Below, in pieces: positions 5,645 through 64,000 of a stretch of DNA of 64,000 bases. Position 1 is the stretch's first letter, and each line of letters opens with the position of its first letter. The stretch comes from Bacillus marasmi (GTDB taxonomy: Bacteria; Bacillota; Bacilli; Bacillales; Cytobacillaceae), in the NCBI RefSeq assembly GCF_902168435.1, contig NZ_LR656168.1:214070-278069 (forward strand), read 5' to 3'. The translations under genes and the position numbers were made by a program. Below the pieces are notes generated by a model. It had not been told where the DNA came from. It made no database searches and worked only from the letters and a program-made list of their open reading frames with translations.

Positions 5645-6110
5645 CCATATAGTTTAAGTATTTCAGCTATACAAAAAATCGAACTATCATTCGAAATTCT
5701 AACTTAGAATTTCCTTATAGTTCGATTTTTTTACTTTTACAATAGGCATTACCCTGAAAAAATTGCGGTTACATTGCTGTGCAAAATTTTTTGCATCTGG
5801 CTCTGTTAACCCGATTGTTGATTTCCTTTTGTTTGAAAATAAGCGGAGGAATTCCGCTTATCTCAGGAAATACCTATATTTCCTTAAAAATAGCAGGAGT
5901 TTTTCCGCTTATCTCATAAAAATCACTAGATTTTGTCCTTTTGGGAGTAGTTAAGTGGAAATTCTCCCCTTATTTCAGCTCAATTAGCCCCAACTACATA
6001 CAATAACGGGAAATTCTCCTCTTATTTATTCTCATACCTACATAAAAATCATTCGGTTTTAATAACGGACAATTTAGTTCTGCCCTAGCTTCATTTTATA
6101 CACTAAAACT
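5645..6110 (+). repeat. Composite repeat element, copy A
   Basis: The gap between dctB and dctP holds, in order: AGTTTAAGTATTTCA, a strong hairpin (677-732 of the 5 kb line), a linker with GCAAAATTTTTTGCAT, the phrase GTTGATTTCCTT, then four diverged units based on an inverted AAGCGGA/TCCGCTT word (about 5840-6040), then TAGTTCTGCCCTAGCTTC. The whole order is repeated in reverse at 34440-34905. Spacing between units is 51, 59 and 52 bp. No protein is encoded. Confidence 0.75.
5677..5732 (+). terminator. Hairpin and T-run after dctB
   Basis: AATCGAACTAT (5677-5687) pairs with ATAGTTCGATT (5717-5727), with an inner weaker pairing of GAAATTCTAA/TTAGAATTTC, then a T-run. It can serve as terminator of dctB and is also the hairpin part of composite element A. 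Confidence 0.75.
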
Positions 6111-14149: not shown

Positions 14150-15335
14150 CCGATGTTTCACGGTCTAGATGGGGCGATTAGGTTCTATTCATTACTCTAT
14201 TCTCTGATTTCTCCTTCTAGATGGTGCAATTAGGTTCTATTCATTACTCTATTCTCTGGTTTCTCCTTCTAGATGGTGCAATTAGGTTCTATTCATTACT
14301 CTATTCTCGGTTTTCTCCTTCTAGATGGGGCGATTAGGTTCTATTCATTACTCTATTCTCTGAATCCGCCATCTTGATGGGGCGATTAGACACTATTCAT
14401 TACTCTATTCTCGGTTTTCGTCCTCTAGATGGGGCGATTAGGTTCTATTCATTACTCTATTCTCTGATTTCTCCTTCTAGATGGGGCGATTAGGTTCTAT
14501 TCATTACTCTATTCTCGGTTTTCGTCCTCTAGATGGGGCGATTAGGTTCTATTCATTACTCTATTCTCTGAATCCGCCATCTAGATGGGGCGATTAGGTT
14601 CTATTCATTACTCTATTCTCGGTTTTCGTCCTCTAGATGGGGCGATTAGACACTATTCATTACTCTATTCTCTGAATCCACCATCTAGATGGGGCGATTA
14701 GTTTCTATTCATTACTCTATTCTCGGTTTTCGTCCTCTAGATGGGGCGATTAGACACTATTCATTACTCTATTCTCGGATTTCTCCTTCTAGATGGTGCA
14801 ATTAGGTTCTATTCATTACTCTATTCTCGGTTTTCTCCTTCTAGATGGGGCGATTAGGTTCTATTCATTACTCTATTCTCGGTTTTCTCCTTCTAGATGG
14901 GGCGATTAGACTCTATTCATTACTCTATTCTCGATTTTCGTCCTCTAGATGGGGCGATTAGACTCTATTCATTACTCTATTCTCTGGTTTTCTCCTTCTA
15001 GATGGGGCGATTAGGTTCTACTCATTACTCTATTCTCTGAATCCGCCATCTTGATGGGGCGATTAGACACTATTCATTACTCTATTCTCTGAATCCGCCA
15101 TCTTGATGGGGCGATTAGACACTATTCATTACTCTATTCTCGGTTTTCGTCCTCTAGATGGGGCGATTAGACACTATTCATTACTCTATTCTCGATTTTC
15201 GTCCTCTAGATGGGGCGATTAGACACTATTCATTACTCTATTCTCGATTTTCGTCCTCTAGATGGGGCGATTAGACACTATTCATTACTCTATTCTCGGT
15301 TTTCGCCGTCTTGATGGGGCGATTATGACAAGAAA
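14150..15335. repeat. 52-bp tandem array (about 23 units)
   Basis: Units begin TCTAGATGGGGCGATTAG and repeat every 52 bp from 14164 to 15309, about 23 times, with small sequence variants (GGTTCTATTC versus GACACTATTC; several versions of the last 15 bases). No spacers, no start signals and no conserved open frame. It fills the gap between two convergent genes. The remaining bases to 15395 show nothing. Confidence 0.95.
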
Positions 15336-23389: not shown

Positions 23390-23735
23390 TAGTGGAAAAT
23401 AGGTCACTTATGCAGCCTTTAAGTGCCCTCTTTTTCTGTCGTTCTCGAAATTAGGGCACTTATACCGTCTTTAAGCGCCCTCTTTTTCGGCTGTTCTCAA
23501 AATTAGGGCTCTTATACCGTCTTTAAGCGTCCTCTTTTTCTGTCGTTCTCGAAAATAGGTCACTTATGCAGCTTTTAAGCGCCCTCTTTTTCTGTCGTTC
23601 TCGAAAATAGGTCACTTATGCAGCCTTTAAGTGCCCTCTTTTTCTATCGTTCTCGAAATTAGGGCACTTATACCGTCTTTAAGCGCCCTCTTTTGATTCT
23701 CATTTCAAAAATAGGTCACTTATGGCGATGAACCC
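23390..23735. repeat. 52-bp tandem array (six units plus a part)
   Basis: Units start AGGTCACTTATGCAGCC or AGGGCACTTATACCGTC. The first and last occurrences are 312 bp apart, exactly six times 52. Each unit carries an inverted pair, AGGKCACTTA against TTAAGYGCCCT, so each could fold into a small hairpin. Located between the ABC operon and the upstream exported-protein gene. The preceding 100 bases show nothing more. Confidence 0.93.
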
Positions 23736-34439: not shown

Positions 34440-34905
34440 TATTTTAAAGAAGCTAGGACAAAACTAAAATCGTATGATTAAAGTTCAGTGTTGATTTTAC
34501 ATGTAGGTATGAGAATAAGCGGAGAATTTCCCGTTATTGTACCTAAGGGGTGCCAATTGAGATGAAATAAGAGGAGAATTTCCGCTTAACTACTCCCCAA
34601 AAGGCAAAATCCAGTGATTTTTATGAAATAAGTGGAAAAACTCCCTTTATTCTTAGCAAAAATACCATATTTCTCAAAATAAGCGGAATTATTCCCTTTA
34701 TTTTCATACACAAGGAAATCAACATTTGGGTTACCAGATCCACATGCAAAAAATTTTTCACATCAATGTTATCCACAGTTAGTTCAAGGTAGTGTCCATT
34801 GTAAATAGGAAAAAAAATCGAACTATCGGGAAATTCAAAGTTAAAATTTCGCACGATAGTTCGTTTTTTTTATTTAGTTGAAATACTTATGTCCCAAACT
34901 AATTG
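34440..34905 (-). repeat. Composite repeat element, copy B (inverted to copy A)
   Basis: Read on the minus strand it repeats copy A throughout: AGTTTGGGACATAAGTATTTCA, the ATAGTTCG hairpin, GTGAAAAATTTTTTGCATGT, GTTGATTTCCTTGTG, four units based on TCCGCTTATTT with spacings of 51, 61 and 52 bp, and the closing TAGTTTTGTCCTAGCTTC. The two copies differ by many scattered changes, so the duplication is not recent. It fills the gap between two convergent genes. Confidence 0.8.
34819..34871. terminator. Hairpin of composite element B
   Basis: CGAACTATCG / CGATAGTTCG with inner AAATT/AATTT pairing; A-run on one side and T-run on the other. It can end transcription from both sides, including the CoA-transferase transcript. 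Confidence 0.7.
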
Positions 34906-36086: not shown

Positions 36087-36287
36087 TCGTGCTAGCCTAC
36101 CTTTCAAATATGTTTCGGTCTAGTTCCGTTTTTAGTTACTTGTCTTTATTTTACAATGAATTTACTGATTTTTTAGAAAATTTAATACCCAAACATTCGA
36201 CAGTTTTTTTGACAGGATTTTATTGGGGTGGTCGTGGGTGCTTTGGTTTTAGGGACATCTATGGGGTTTGCGGGTTTCATTCATGAT

Positions 36288-36385
36288 CTTTAGTTACCGC
36301 TTGGGCGTTTTTTCGAGGGAGCGGTAATCATTCGCTTTCTATGGTTACCACTTGGGCCTTTTTTTCGAGGGAGCGGGCTCCATTC
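36288..36385. repeat. 51-bp repeat, two units
   Basis: GTTACCGCTTGGGCG at 36293 recurs as GTTACCACTTGGGCC at 36344, 51 bp later, each followed by TTTTTTCGAGGGAGCGG. The unit has an inverted pair TTACCGCT / AGCGGTAA. The rest of the gap between 36087 and 36450 shows nothing apart from a weak terminator. Confidence 0.8.
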
Positions 36386-36402
36386 CGTAAATCCTTACAT
36401 TA

Positions 36403-37371: not shown

Positions 37372-37490
37372 TCAATACCTCCTAATAGAATTAGTAAATT
37401 TAACAGTTTCTCAATAATCCTATTATAAGGGTAAATTTCATTAATATTATAGAGATATGCAAATTGTTGGGAAAATAAATGAAGTTGACT

Positions 37491-38115
37491 CTACGTGACC
37501 AAATGTGATGAAAACTCAGACATATGGGCACGTATACCGTTTCTACGTGACCTATTTCGATGGAAGCTCAGCAAAATGGGCACGTATTGGGATTCTACGT
37601 GACCAATTCCGATGGAAACTCTGACAATTGGGCACGTATAGAGACTCTATGTGACCAATTCCGATGGGGACTCAGCATAATGGGCACGTATACTTTTTCT
37701 ACGTGACCAATTCCGATGGGAACTCGGCAAAATGGGCACGTATACTTTTTCTACGTGACCAATTCCGATGGGAACTCGGCAAAATGGGCACGTATACTTT
37801 TTCTACGTGACCAATTCCGATGGGAACTCGGCAAAATGGGCACGTATACTTTTTCTACGTGACCAAATACGATAGGAACCCAGCAAATTGGGCACGTATA
37901 CTTTTTCTACGTGACCAAATACGATAGGAACTCAGCCAAATGGGCACGTATACTTTTTCTACGTGACCAAATTTGATAGGAACTCAGCCAAATGGGCACG
38001 TATACCGTTTCTACGTGACCAAATACGATGGGAACTCGGCAAAATGGGCACGTATAGAGACTCTACGTGCCCATTTCCGATGGGTACTCAGCAAGAAGGG
38101 CACATATTGCGCTCA
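37491..38115. repeat. 52-bp tandem array (about 12 units)
   Basis: Units start CTACGTGACCAA and contain GATGGGAACTC and GGGCACGTATA. First and last starts are 572 bp apart, exactly 11 times 52. Each unit has the inverted pair TACGTGACC / GGGCACGTA about 26 bases apart; the last unit has TACGTGCCC, which pairs fully. Located between panE and the next minus-strand gene. Confidence 0.95.
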
Positions 38116-39909: not shown

Positions 39910-41769
39910 TTAGTTTGCTTTCTTACGGTTGAACAATCTTGTAGCAAGTCCCATTAACGCAGTTGCCAAACCTAGTAATCCAAGATTCGTGGTGTTGGTG
40001 GCTGTGACTGGAAGTTTATTCCCTGAAGATTTGACATCCTTTTTGTCAGTTTTGGTGTCTGGTTTTGTATCATTATCTTGATCTTTGTCAGCATCGGCAT
40101 CCGCGTCGGCGTCAGCATCCGCGTCAGCATCCGCGTCAGCATCCGCGTCGGCATCTGCATCCGCGTCAGCATCCGCGTCGGCATCGGCGTCTGCATCGGC
40201 GTCGGCATCGGCATCAGCGTCCGCATCCGCGTCAGCATCCGCATCCGCATCGGCGTCGGCGTCTGCATCGGCGTCCGCATCCGCGTCAGCATCTGCGTCA
40301 GCATCGGCATCTGCGTCAGCATCTGCGTCAGCATCTGCGTCGGCGTCGGCGTCGGCATCAGCATCGGCGTCGGCATCAGCGTCCGCATCCGCATCCGCAT
40401 CCGCATCGGCGTCAGCATCCGCGTCGGCATCGGCGTCAGCATCCGCATCCGCATCGGCGTCAGCATCTGCATCGGCATCCGCATCGGCGTCGGCGTCAGC
40501 ATCCGCGTCAGCATCCGCGTCAGCATCAGCATCCGCATCCGCATCCGCATCGGCGTCTGCATCGGCGTCGGCATCCGCATCCGCATCTGCATCCGCATCG
40601 GCATCTGCATCCGCGTCGGCATCCGCATCGGCGTCGGCGTCAGCATCCGCATCTGCATCAGCGTCGGCATCCGCATCTGCATCGGCATCTGCATCGGCGT
40701 CAGCATCCGCATCTGCATCCGCGTCAGCATCCGCATCTGCATCCGCGTCGGCATCCGCATCAGCGTCAGCATCCGCATCCGCATCCGCATCCGCATCAGC
40801 GTCAGCATCCGCATCTGCATCAGCGTCAGCATCCGCATCGGCGTCAGCATCCGCATCGGCGTCAGCATCCGCATCGGCGTCGGCATCCGCATCGGCGTCA
40901 GCATCGGCGTCAGCATCCGCGTCGGCATCCGCGTCAGCATCCGCGTCAGCGTCAGCATCGGCGTCAGCATCCGCATCCGCATCTGCATCTGCATCTGCGT
41001 CTGCGTCTGCGTCGCTATCATCGTTTGGAACTGGAATATCTAATTGATTGTTTTGGTTAGGTAAAATTTCTACTTCAACAACTTGATCATTTGTATCTGC
41101 AATAAAGGTATAAAGGCCATCCTCTGCTTCTGGAAGTGAATTCATAGGAATTTCTAAATGTAATGTAAATTCAGCATCAACCTCTGCTAATGCTAAAATA
41201 TGACCAATTTCAAAATAGATTAATCCTTTATCTAAATCCACCTTAAGTTCTCCAGGTTCAAAAGTTCCCTCAGTTACGATACCTAAAGATAGTAGACTAC
41301 TATATGTGTAGTTTGCAGTAATAGAATTAATAAAATCAGGGTCTGCTAATAATTCAGCAAACTCTTCTGGCATTTGAATAATTAACTTTGCATTTTGAAA
41401 AGCTGATGCTCCAATTAACTTTGAACCACTATAATCCATCGTAATTTTATGTGTTACTGGATCCATTCCACCTGTTAATGATTGATGATCCAATACCGTT
41501 GCATTAGTAGGTAACCCCGGAATTGGAAGCTCTGGAAATAATGGTGGTATAGGTACATTTAAGTTAACCCCTGCATTCACCAACGGAGATTGTGAAGGTT
41601 GTACAATCCCTGTACCTAACAACAAAGACCTAGTTTCTACTGCGGCAGCACCCGCATTTTGTGGTGTTATCGCCAAGGTTGTTGTGGCTAAAACAGCAGC
41701 TACACGCAATGCTAAGGCAGCCTTTCGCTTGTTCATCCTTTTCTTGTAATCAACATTTTTCTTACTCAC
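39910..41769 (-). CDS. Sortase-anchored surface protein with Asp-Ala repeat
   Basis: A protein of 619 residues from the GTG at 41769 (GGGAGGGG seven bases upstream; TTG one codon earlier possible). Order: signal peptide (about 10-45, ending QNAGAAA), an N-terminal domain of about 200 residues that is paralogous to the next protein ([25 protein letters not shown]), about 309 residues of strictly alternating Asp-Ala, a Lys/Asp linker, and a C-terminal sorting signal LPVTA, hydrophobic helix and RKK tail. It should be linked to peptidoglycan by a sortase not present here, with the acidic repeat as a stalk. Adhesion or biofilm function is inferred from this layout. Confidence 0.8.
40087..41013 (-). 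repeat. Asp-Ala coding repeat (about 154 dipeptides)
   Basis: 927 bp of in-frame GAY-GCN hexanucleotides without interruption. Both Asp codons and all four Ala codons are mixed, so the protein pattern is perfect while the DNA is not a perfect repeat. The opposite strand and other frames also stay open because of the hexamer structure. Confidence 0.95.
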
Positions 41770-58149: not shown

Positions 58150-58179
58150 TGTTCGCTCCACCTTCCCTTCTGTTGCTGA

Positions 58180-58575
58180 TTGAGTACCTATTTTTCGTGT
58201 TCATTGCAAATTTAAGTCGTGAATACATGCTTTTGACTACTTATTTTTCGCATTCATTGCAAATCCAAGGCATCAATGCATGCTATTGACTACTTATTTT
58301 CCGCCTTCATTGCAAATCCAAGGCATCAATGCACGCTATTGACTACTTATTTTCCGCATTCACCACAAAACCAAGGCATAAATACACGCTATTGACTACT
58401 TATTTTCCGCATTCACCACAAAACCAAGGCATAAATACACGCTATTGACTACTTATTTTTCGCCTTCATTGCAAATCCAAGGCATCAATACACGCTATTG
58501 ACTACTTATTTTCCGCATTCACCACAAAACCACGGCATCAATGCACGCTATTAAGTACTATTTTTCCTGACACTA
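58180..58575. repeat. 53-bp tandem array inside the cobalamin operon (seven units)
   Basis: Units start TTGACTACTTATTTTCCGC and contain CCAAGGCATMAAT. Starts at 58180, 58233, 58286 and 58339 are 53 bp apart, and the last is seven units on. Two unit versions alternate (TTCATTGCAAATCC and TTCACCACAAAACC). The array lies between cobA and cobO, genes of one operon, so it is probably transcribed. Confidence 0.93.
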
Positions 58576-63384: not shown

Positions 63385-64000
63385 TTCTTTCTATGAGACA
63401 GTTCTTGCGTTTATTGGGTGCTTTTTTTTTCATATAGCCTCTCTATGAGACACTTCTTCCGTTTCTTGGGCTACTTTTGTTCCATAGAGCCTCTCTATGA
63501 GACACTTCTTCCGTTTCTTGGGCTACTTTTGTTCCATAGAGCCTCTCTATGAGACACTTCTTCCGTTTCTTGGGCTACTTTTGTTCCATAGAGCCCCTCT
63601 ATGAGACACTTCTTCCGTTTCTTGGGCTACTTTTGTTCCATAGAGCCCCTCTATGAGACACTTCTTCCGTTTCTTGGGCTACTTTTGTTCCATAGAGCCC
63701 CTCTATGAGACACTTCTTCCGTTTCTTGGGCTACTTTTGTTCCATAGAGCCCCTCTATGAGACACTTCTTCCGTTTCTTGGGCTACTTTTGTTCCATAGA
63801 GCCCCTCTATGAGACACTTCTTCCGTTTCTTGGGTTACTTTTGTTCCATAGAGCCCCTCTATGAGACACTTCTTCCGTTTCTTGGGCTACTTTTGTTCCA
63901 TAGAGCCTCTCTATGAGACACTTCTTCCGTTTCTTGGGCTACTTTTGTTCCATAGAGCCTCTCTATGAGACACTTCTTCCGTTTCTTGGGCTACTTTTGT
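63385..64000. repeat. 52-bp tandem array (about 12 units, runs off the edge)
   Basis: Units CTCTATGAGACACTTCTTCC followed by GTTTCTTGGGCTACTTTTGT and TCCATAGAGCC. Starts at 63391, 63443 and onwards are 52 bp apart. CATAGAG and CTCTATG form an inverted repeat with a three-base gap in each unit. The units are nearly identical (CCCCTC versus CCTCTC), so this array is younger or better homogenised than the others. No other signal seen between cbiA and the edge. Confidence 0.95.

Follow-up and report, generated by a model that had tools for sequence, protein, structure and literature searches.

The tandem array found at about 14.2 kb of the window (by which we mean the whole stretch of 64,000 nucleotides of the Bacillus marasmi genome that was analysed) raises the question of what could keep repeats of apparently different sequence at one and the same length. 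Satellites with a 52-nt unit have been a puzzle in this very respect, their length being constant, their sequence seemingly free and their role not known. The original prediction held that eight arrays of the window, all intergenic, unrelated and different in unit sequence, have periods of 51-53 bp, close to five turns of the double helix, and that this length might be set either by a protein sitting on one face of the DNA or by a copying mechanism with a fixed step.

The array at 14.2 kb was recovered by TRF with the position and period that had been claimed for it (Table 1), and five of the eight proposed arrays proved clear, those at 5.85, 34.5 and 36.3 kb being weak. At 5.85 and 34.5 kb TRF found no array, the identity there at lag 51 or 52 being at best about 0.6. 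These two items belong to an inverted pair of elements of about 400 bp (5655-6051 and 34492-34889), lying 28 kb apart with 82% identity, each arm of which holds three or four degenerate dyads of the form ATAAGNGGA...TCCNCTTAT. The half-sites of the remnant at 36.3 kb resemble, by eye, a family of units denoted P in this work, and a long array of 12-bp period (40087-41013) is found inside an open reading frame. All five TRF arrays of the window are indeed intergenic. Their placement at operon ends is only a loose description, since array D is found between two cob genes on the same strand, namely a cobO-like gene and a gene for uroporphyrinogen-III methyltransferase.

Table 1. Positions of the repeats described in this work (window coordinates, except where a stretch is named; TRF, tandem repeat finder)
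Feature	Position	Strand	Description
Array A	14164-15325	-	52 bp x 22.3 copies (TRF); between convergent genes
Array B	23395-23723		52 bp x 6.3 copies (TRF); dyad AGGGCACTTA...TAAGCGCCCT
Array C	37490-38107	-	52 bp x 11.9 copies (TRF); minus-strand frame GGTCACGTA...TACGTGCCC
Array D (U family)	58179-58564		53 bp x 7.3 copies (TRF)
Array E (V family)	63390-64000	-	52 bp, units 97% alike; continues beyond the window end to ~64310
Two-copy remnant near 36.3 kb	36262-36400		identity 0.69 at lag 51, 0.60 at lag 52
Degenerate dyads	5839-6025		51-61 bp spacing
Degenerate dyads	34515-34690		51-61 bp apart; 82% identical, in inverted orientation, to the element at 5.7-6.1 kb
Short dyad repeats of Y1 genes	L029 ~1049-1102, 1985-2006; L030 several places

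The period was then considered at the scale of the genome, in a TRF survey covering 2.064 of its 4.638 Mb (44%). This survey yielded 178 loci, 96 of them of at least 100 bp, the density of arrays being biased upward at the start of contig C13, at 100-120 kb of C19, at 60-80 kb of C37 and in C39, which had been picked for matches to array A. Among these 96 arrays, 59 have a period of 50-54 bp (one at 50, five at 51, 43 at 52 and ten at 53) and one more has a period of 102, which brings the set used below to 60 arrays. The remaining 36 are scattered over periods of 12-48, 72, 93, 118-126 and 204-346 bp. The 51-53 bp class, with 58 of the 96 arrays, thus dominates the survey, and the histogram, instead of being broad, peaks where the original prediction had placed it, in one stand-out class near five helical turns; the peak is real and not a product of chance. 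Other classes of repeats were also seen. Arrays of 20-21 bp are common (42 TRF loci), and three arrays with a 40-bp period (C16 196742-197031, C27 24755-25415 and C37 59629-59743) carry the core TTTAATCGCC/GGCGATTA, which by eye is also present in 52-bp family A as GGGGCGATTAG. A separate class of 124-126 bp (C19 33075, C23 196335, C25 167329 and C27 3174) holds CTGCAG, GGCGCC and AAGCC-like parts.

A first step in understanding what these units have in common comes from their internal symmetry. In 23 of the 44 arrays tested, the best dyad of the unit beats 95% of dinucleotide shuffles; in the other 21 it does not, and array A, the unit of which reads TAGATGGNGCGATTA...ATTACTCTA and the purine-rich strand of which is the minus strand (leading, according to GC skew), is one of the latter. 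The dyad of array B has a score of 10, with a z of 4.9 against shuffles. A typical unit with a clear dyad consists of an imperfect, odd-centred dyad of about 27 bp and a linker of about 25 bp. With the span of the search limited to 31, the best dyad is odd in 50 of the 60 B. marasmi arrays, in 22 of 25 from other genomes and in 24 of 27 published units, the baseline in shuffles being 96/180 and 81/135. In the B. marasmi units, pairing dips to 0.62 and 0.52 at spans of 21-23, rises to 0.94 at both 25 and 27, and drops sharply beyond, to 0.52 at 29 and 0.20 at 31; this outer edge is softer in other genomes and not sharp in the published units, five of which have TGTC...GACA ends and a best dyad span of 27 in three cases and of 29 and 31 in the others.

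Many arrays, although only some of the families, also have a sequence frame in common, which on the leading strand reads GGKMAY-N15-RTGCCC. The complement of its main form, GGGCAY-N15-GTKACC, was used as the search pattern and gave 228 matches in the B. marasmi genome, compared to none for the reversed control pattern. Since this pattern fixes positions 3 and 25, these two cannot pair; with a pattern admitting symmetric ends, the ends were still mainly asymmetric in 49 of 50 multi-hit loci. Therefore, the arrays cannot all be described as unrelated, given the 27-bp frame and dyad common to many of them, and the claim that their unit sequences differ holds only in part. The framed arrays would appear to descend from a common 52-bp unit that subsequently spread and diversified. 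A comparison of units also joined all 60 arrays into a single family; as that grouping came from single linkage over many comparisons, we do not take it as evidence of a common origin.

The 15 inner bases are left free in the frame search, so that their pairing provides a fair test of whether the dyad is kept. Taking one representative per locus in 50 loci, the Watson-Crick fractions for pairs 7-21, 8-20 and 9-19 were 0.68, 0.82 and 0.80, compared to shuffled values of 0.30, 0.46 and 0.43 and to maxima of 0.56, 0.66 and 0.64 in 2000 shuffles, in statistics computed without phylogenetic correction. Pairs 10-18 (0.40 versus 0.27 shuffled) and 11-17 (0.46 versus 0.34) were weaker, and pair 12-16 showed no excess in the same loci (0.22 versus 0.28). 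Within arrays, changes on both sides of the stem that preserved pairing were found 31 times, with 6.7 expected, 27 of them on C16 and C13; ten double-side changes were unpaired and 126 changes affected a single side. These single-side changes, read on the frame strand, gave 28 G.T, 27 A.C and 71 other mismatches. The near equality of G.T and A.C means that neither strand is seen to fold, which argues against a hairpin formed by one strand. In 36 of 41 arrays, conservation was higher in the stem than in the linker, and loops were no better conserved than linkers (22 versus 19 of these arrays). Moreover, the genome carries several different inner stems with their complementarity kept, and three composite arrays switch family in register: C16 207404-208811 passes from R to P and then to Q in a 51/52-bp register, and C13 92496-93441 and C13 291122-291856 pass from P to Q. 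The coexistence of several stems and these in-register switches indicate that it is pairing, rather than one inner sequence, that has been kept, and the covariation may reflect either selection or correction of one arm on the template of the other.

The frame is by no means restricted to B. marasmi. Of the 397 genomes searched within the order, 31 (B. marasmi included; counted by eye) had at least ten matches to the search pattern; they belong to nine GTDB families, and the reversed control never rose above five. Among 299 genomes drawn at the level of the class, none of the 272 outside the order reached ten, the top count there being eight, the same as the top control value. For the loci inspected in other genomes, which were among the first in the match listings rather than a random draw, a TRF array with a period of 51-53 or 104 was present in 33 of 34 stretches around matches, from 13 genomes, stretch L224 giving no array and stretch L241 one away from the match. 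The asymmetric form thus recurs every 51-53 bp in further families of this order as well: when neighbouring matches are compared at 51 multi-hit loci (14 genomes), 229 of 275 pairs are spaced by 51, 52 or 53 bp, and the other 46 spacings, with one exception, differ by no more than 1 bp from a multiple of 51 or 52. By eye, the unit of a 52-bp array in the congener G003 (L126 16380-17079) holds GTGTCCGAAG...CTTCGGACAC. A P-family array (L135:18691-19642) gave no blastn match in collections of plasmids or phages.

The asymmetric ends give each framed array a direction, and this direction could be compared with that of replication, as taken from GC skew rather than from a mapped origin, and with that of genes, which were plain calls of open reading frames of at least 80 aa with the arrays masked rather than an annotation. 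Loci with at least two frame matches, merged within 2.5 kb, were considered, leaving out one duplicate found on both strands and the symmetric locus C25 145579. GGKMAY...RTGCCC was found on the strand of positive GC skew, that is, the leading strand, in 43 of 49 loci from 14 genomes (binomial p 6e-8): 16 of 19 in B. marasmi and 27 of 30 among the first listed loci of other genomes. Array C, with 11 matches on the minus strand (37526-38073, one of them symmetric) and a GC skew of -0.106, conforms to this rule, and array B, with two matches (23402-23637), runs contrary to it. The six exceptions are three B-family loci of B. marasmi, two of the seven in G001 and the only one in G271. Half of the 22 single-hit loci were symmetric, several of these being the same site read on both strands, and nine of the 11 asymmetric ones agreed, two disagreeing. 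Unit similarity alone, in B. marasmi, pointed the same way, pairs of equal skew having the same strand in 134 of 154 cases and pairs of opposite skew having opposite strands in 72 of 96. Frame-bearing arrays are thus, for the most part, oriented alike with respect to replication. Family A does not obey this rule, since it reads on the plus strand at all eight matches (the query included), two contigs of opposite skew being among them.

At 27 of 29 tandem loci, genes run in the direction of replication. Agreement of the frame with replication amounts to 13 of 14 convergent loci, both lagging-strand tandem loci and 22 of 27 leading-strand tandem loci, and when genes and replication are in conflict, seven of eight pairs, which rest on two loci, follow replication. 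The leading strand is also purine-rich in 54 of 59 B. marasmi arrays (one of the 60 being left out for its weak GC skew), with a median skew of 0.21, compared to 69% and 0.045 for 836 array-free gaps. That orientation follows GC skew rather than genes suggests a link with replication, segregation or DNA recombination, and models based on RNA lose weight.

Regarding gene context, the arrays with both flanks known comprise 39 in tandem, 18 in convergent and one in a divergent gap, the corresponding numbers for gaps without an array, counted from 100 bp upward, being 545, 99 and 204. Arrays are thus rarer in divergent gaps (p 6e-6) and commoner in convergent ones (p 1.4e-4), and 57 of 58 are flanked, on one side at least, by the 3' end of a gene. 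Family A, not counting C13 183863, which matched only a shorter motif, occupies convergent gaps in six of seven cases (that of the window, C16 129284 and 153144, C13 16403, C19 118632 and C37 74537), C39 11329 being the exception. The families that could be distinguished among the 60 arrays were labelled A, B, C/P/Q, R, S, T, U, V and W, and repeat length goes with the family. All four R arrays of B. marasmi are of 51 bp, as are all seven fetched from the congener G001, all eight U arrays are of 53 bp, and most others are of 52 bp. Repeat length looks to be inherited with the family, which speaks against a single copying machine of fixed step, the second of the two causes put forward by the original prediction.

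The sites of three arrays were also compared in four congeners. In G004, these arrays of the cob region (58.2, 63.4 and 64.75 kb, numbered on the window extended by stretch L028) are absent, the aligned gaps measuring about 36, 9 and 39 bp. In G001, G002 and G003, no TRF array is present either, whether between cobO and cobA (gaps of about 164, 142 and 380 bp) or where the remaining two arrays would be expected (about 67, 124 and 54 bp). A survey of 1.55 Mb around cobA in relatives (80 loci) contained no array of period 50-54, its five arrays of at least 100 bp having periods of 20, 21, 78, 156 and 206. Nevertheless, G001, G002 and G004 hold many frame matches elsewhere, those of G004 including B-like ones listed mostly at 52-53 bp spacing, and G003 has one array at another place, so what is absent from these relatives is the sites and not the class. 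One 52-bp array starts right at a short repeat of the kind that adjoins the RAYT-like genes (about 64731-64750, window plus stretch L028), and the corresponding G004 site has the repeat without the array.

Several known systems were examined as possible drivers. A Y1 transposase (PF01797) was present in 22 of 25 frame-rich genomes (24 of the 31 with at least ten matches, plus G114 with nine) and in 26 of 27 frame-poor ones and, hence, does not track the frame, a comparison that is weak on the frame-poor side, as such genomes may carry 52-bp arrays of other frames. Two frame-rich genomes, G007 and G148, both 100% complete, have no PF01797 match. B. marasmi itself has two RAYT-like Y1_Tnp genes, each lying by its own short dyad repeats (GGGGGACAGTCCCCC or GGTGCCTGTCACC), with no 52-bp array in the 3.3 kb around each gene. 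Replication arrest of the RTP/Ter type was set aside because none of 14 genomes rose above the PF02334 cut-off (three gave weak matches below it), with the B. subtilis control positive. The DNA-binding protein that was anticipated to co-occur with the arrays was, accordingly, not found among these two candidates. CRISPR arrays were discarded since the linkers are repeated as well (mean identity 0.76 in 41 arrays), and no Rfam family matched at gathering score in the window. Intrinsic terminators are not a suitable description either: array D lies between two cob genes, and most arrays are purine-rich on the leading strand, which for most tandem loci coincides with that of the mRNA; some units of the B family do look like a hairpin followed by a T-run. 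Finally, the stability of single-strand hairpins was rejected as the cause of orientation, the strand bias being inconsistent: the lagging strand is predicted to be the more stable in 21 of 60 B. marasmi arrays (294 of 797 baseline gaps) and in 19 of 27 arrays from other genomes.

How could these observations be integrated? The reading that we favour, tentatively and just short of calling it probable, is that a diversified satellite forms phased, polar sites for binding or pairing, a function that we infer. Briefly, neighbouring dyads would have to lie about five helical turns apart, which would hold the length at 51-53 bp, and this spacing would let many weak sites act together from a single side of the helix. 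Polarity would be supplied by the unequal ends of the frame, and the array could then work as a polar, cooperative platform for a putative chromosome or replication protein or, alternatively, in the pairing of single strands exposed at the fork. The protein on one helix face that had been proposed from the outset is possible, and the fact that inner stem bases vary between arrays of one genome and are still complementary means that a protein reading them directly is not a simple answer. Against the notion of phased polar sites stand the lack of a binding protein among those searched for, the 21 tested arrays, family A among them, with no dyad above chance, the six loci that break the orientation rule, the soft outer edge of the dyad in published units, and the coincidence of gene and replication direction at most tandem loci, the latter direction being taken from GC skew. 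A bolder form of it, conceivable if somewhat unlikely, is that the arrays are a hitherto undescribed polar chromosome element of the Bacillales, consisting of phased arrays of a 27-bp imperfect dyad, flexible in sequence and conserved in structure, whose ends would set the direction relative to the fork and which would be read as a fold or dyad rather than as a sequence, for example in steering replication or segregation or in organising the nucleoid behind the fork.

A mobile single-strand hairpin element would also suit stems that covary between unequal ends, an orientation by replication strand, and arrays found here and missing from the corresponding gaps of four congeners, the units of such an element being expected to fold on the exposed lagging-strand template and to be moved or amplified by a recombinase or an HUH enzyme, orientation then marking the strand acted upon. 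In REP/RAYT, IS200/IS605 and integron attC systems, the enzyme does act on a folded single strand. We consider this explanation unlikely, in view of the failure of Y1 to follow the frame (G007 and G148 being frame-rich without it), of the two B. marasmi Y1 genes adjoining repeats other than the 52-bp arrays, of the lack of preference for G.T over A.C and of the absence of target duplication at the three cob-region sites compared by eye, the edges of which are not clean. It could also be argued that the arrays are a neutral satellite, generated by slippage and unequal exchange and surviving where no promoter or gene is broken, its arms being kept alike by template-switch correction. Such quasi-palindrome mutation can be biased by replication strand and could yield stem covariation without selection, and neutrality agrees with the array-free sites of congeners and with the few arrays in divergent gaps. 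However, it leaves unexplained why the length is 51-53 bp across several families, correction between arms should not leave the ends unequal, as they are in nearly all multi-hit loci, and single-strand stability does not separate the strands in a consistent manner, so this reading appears rather improbable. The proximity of gene 3' ends, together with the transcription of repeats reported for B. coagulans in PMC8625621, a companion paper to PMC8161180, would fit a transcribed repeat RNA, in which arrays in 3' untranslated regions form strings of RNA hairpins (acting in stability, as a sponge or as small RNA), and an RNA role has indeed been proposed in print for Bacillus satellites. Nonetheless, we regard it as very improbable, for orientation follows GC skew at convergent gaps and at lagging-strand tandem loci, where gene direction sets no such rule, Rfam gave no match in the window, and stem changes show no preference for G.U.

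When compared with known systems, the arrays resemble, although they do not match, several of them. REP/BIME elements with their RAYT (Y1) enzymes are intergenic, lie near gene 3' ends, form imperfect dyads and are clustered, and in all this the arrays are like them; in contrast, the arrays have a fixed, head-to-tail 52-bp period and Y1 does not track their frame. Integron attC sites have conserved ends, variable covarying stems and mismatches that mark the strand, three features found again here, whereas the arrays have no cassettes between units and a short, uniform period. Ter/RTP, KOPS and SRS are oriented with replication, as the arrays are, and differ in being short sites rather than 52-bp arrays.

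The closest relatives are the 52-nt satellites of Bacillus and other Firmicutes described by Subirana and Messeguer (PMC8161180), who found a length of 51-53 nt in 1886 of 4029 tandem repeats of Bacillus, their sequences differing between species, noted short signals that are common within a genome and often occur together with their reverse in one repeat, and discussed a protein scaffold or a small RNA as their role. The arrays studied here have the same constant period of 51-53 nt, several families per genome and mostly short arrays, which are non-coding, with species-specific dominant families and sites that are only partly conserved, and they are shown to belong to this satellite class of the Bacillales. 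PMC8161180 reports that sequence is not conserved between species and does not contain the words orientation, palindrom or hairpin, and a literature search at the level of listings returned no publication on the strand orientation or a common frame of 52-nt repeats. Hence, the fixed period of about 52 bp is already known in print, and what goes beyond the published accounts found is the odd-centred dyad with its common frame, GGGCAY-N15-GTKACC recurring in other genera and families, the orientation along GC skew and the family-bound lengths. The common frame alters the description of the class without excluding the arrays from it, lets part of these satellites be searched by pattern in any genome and, together with the orientation to replication, makes their purpose testable.
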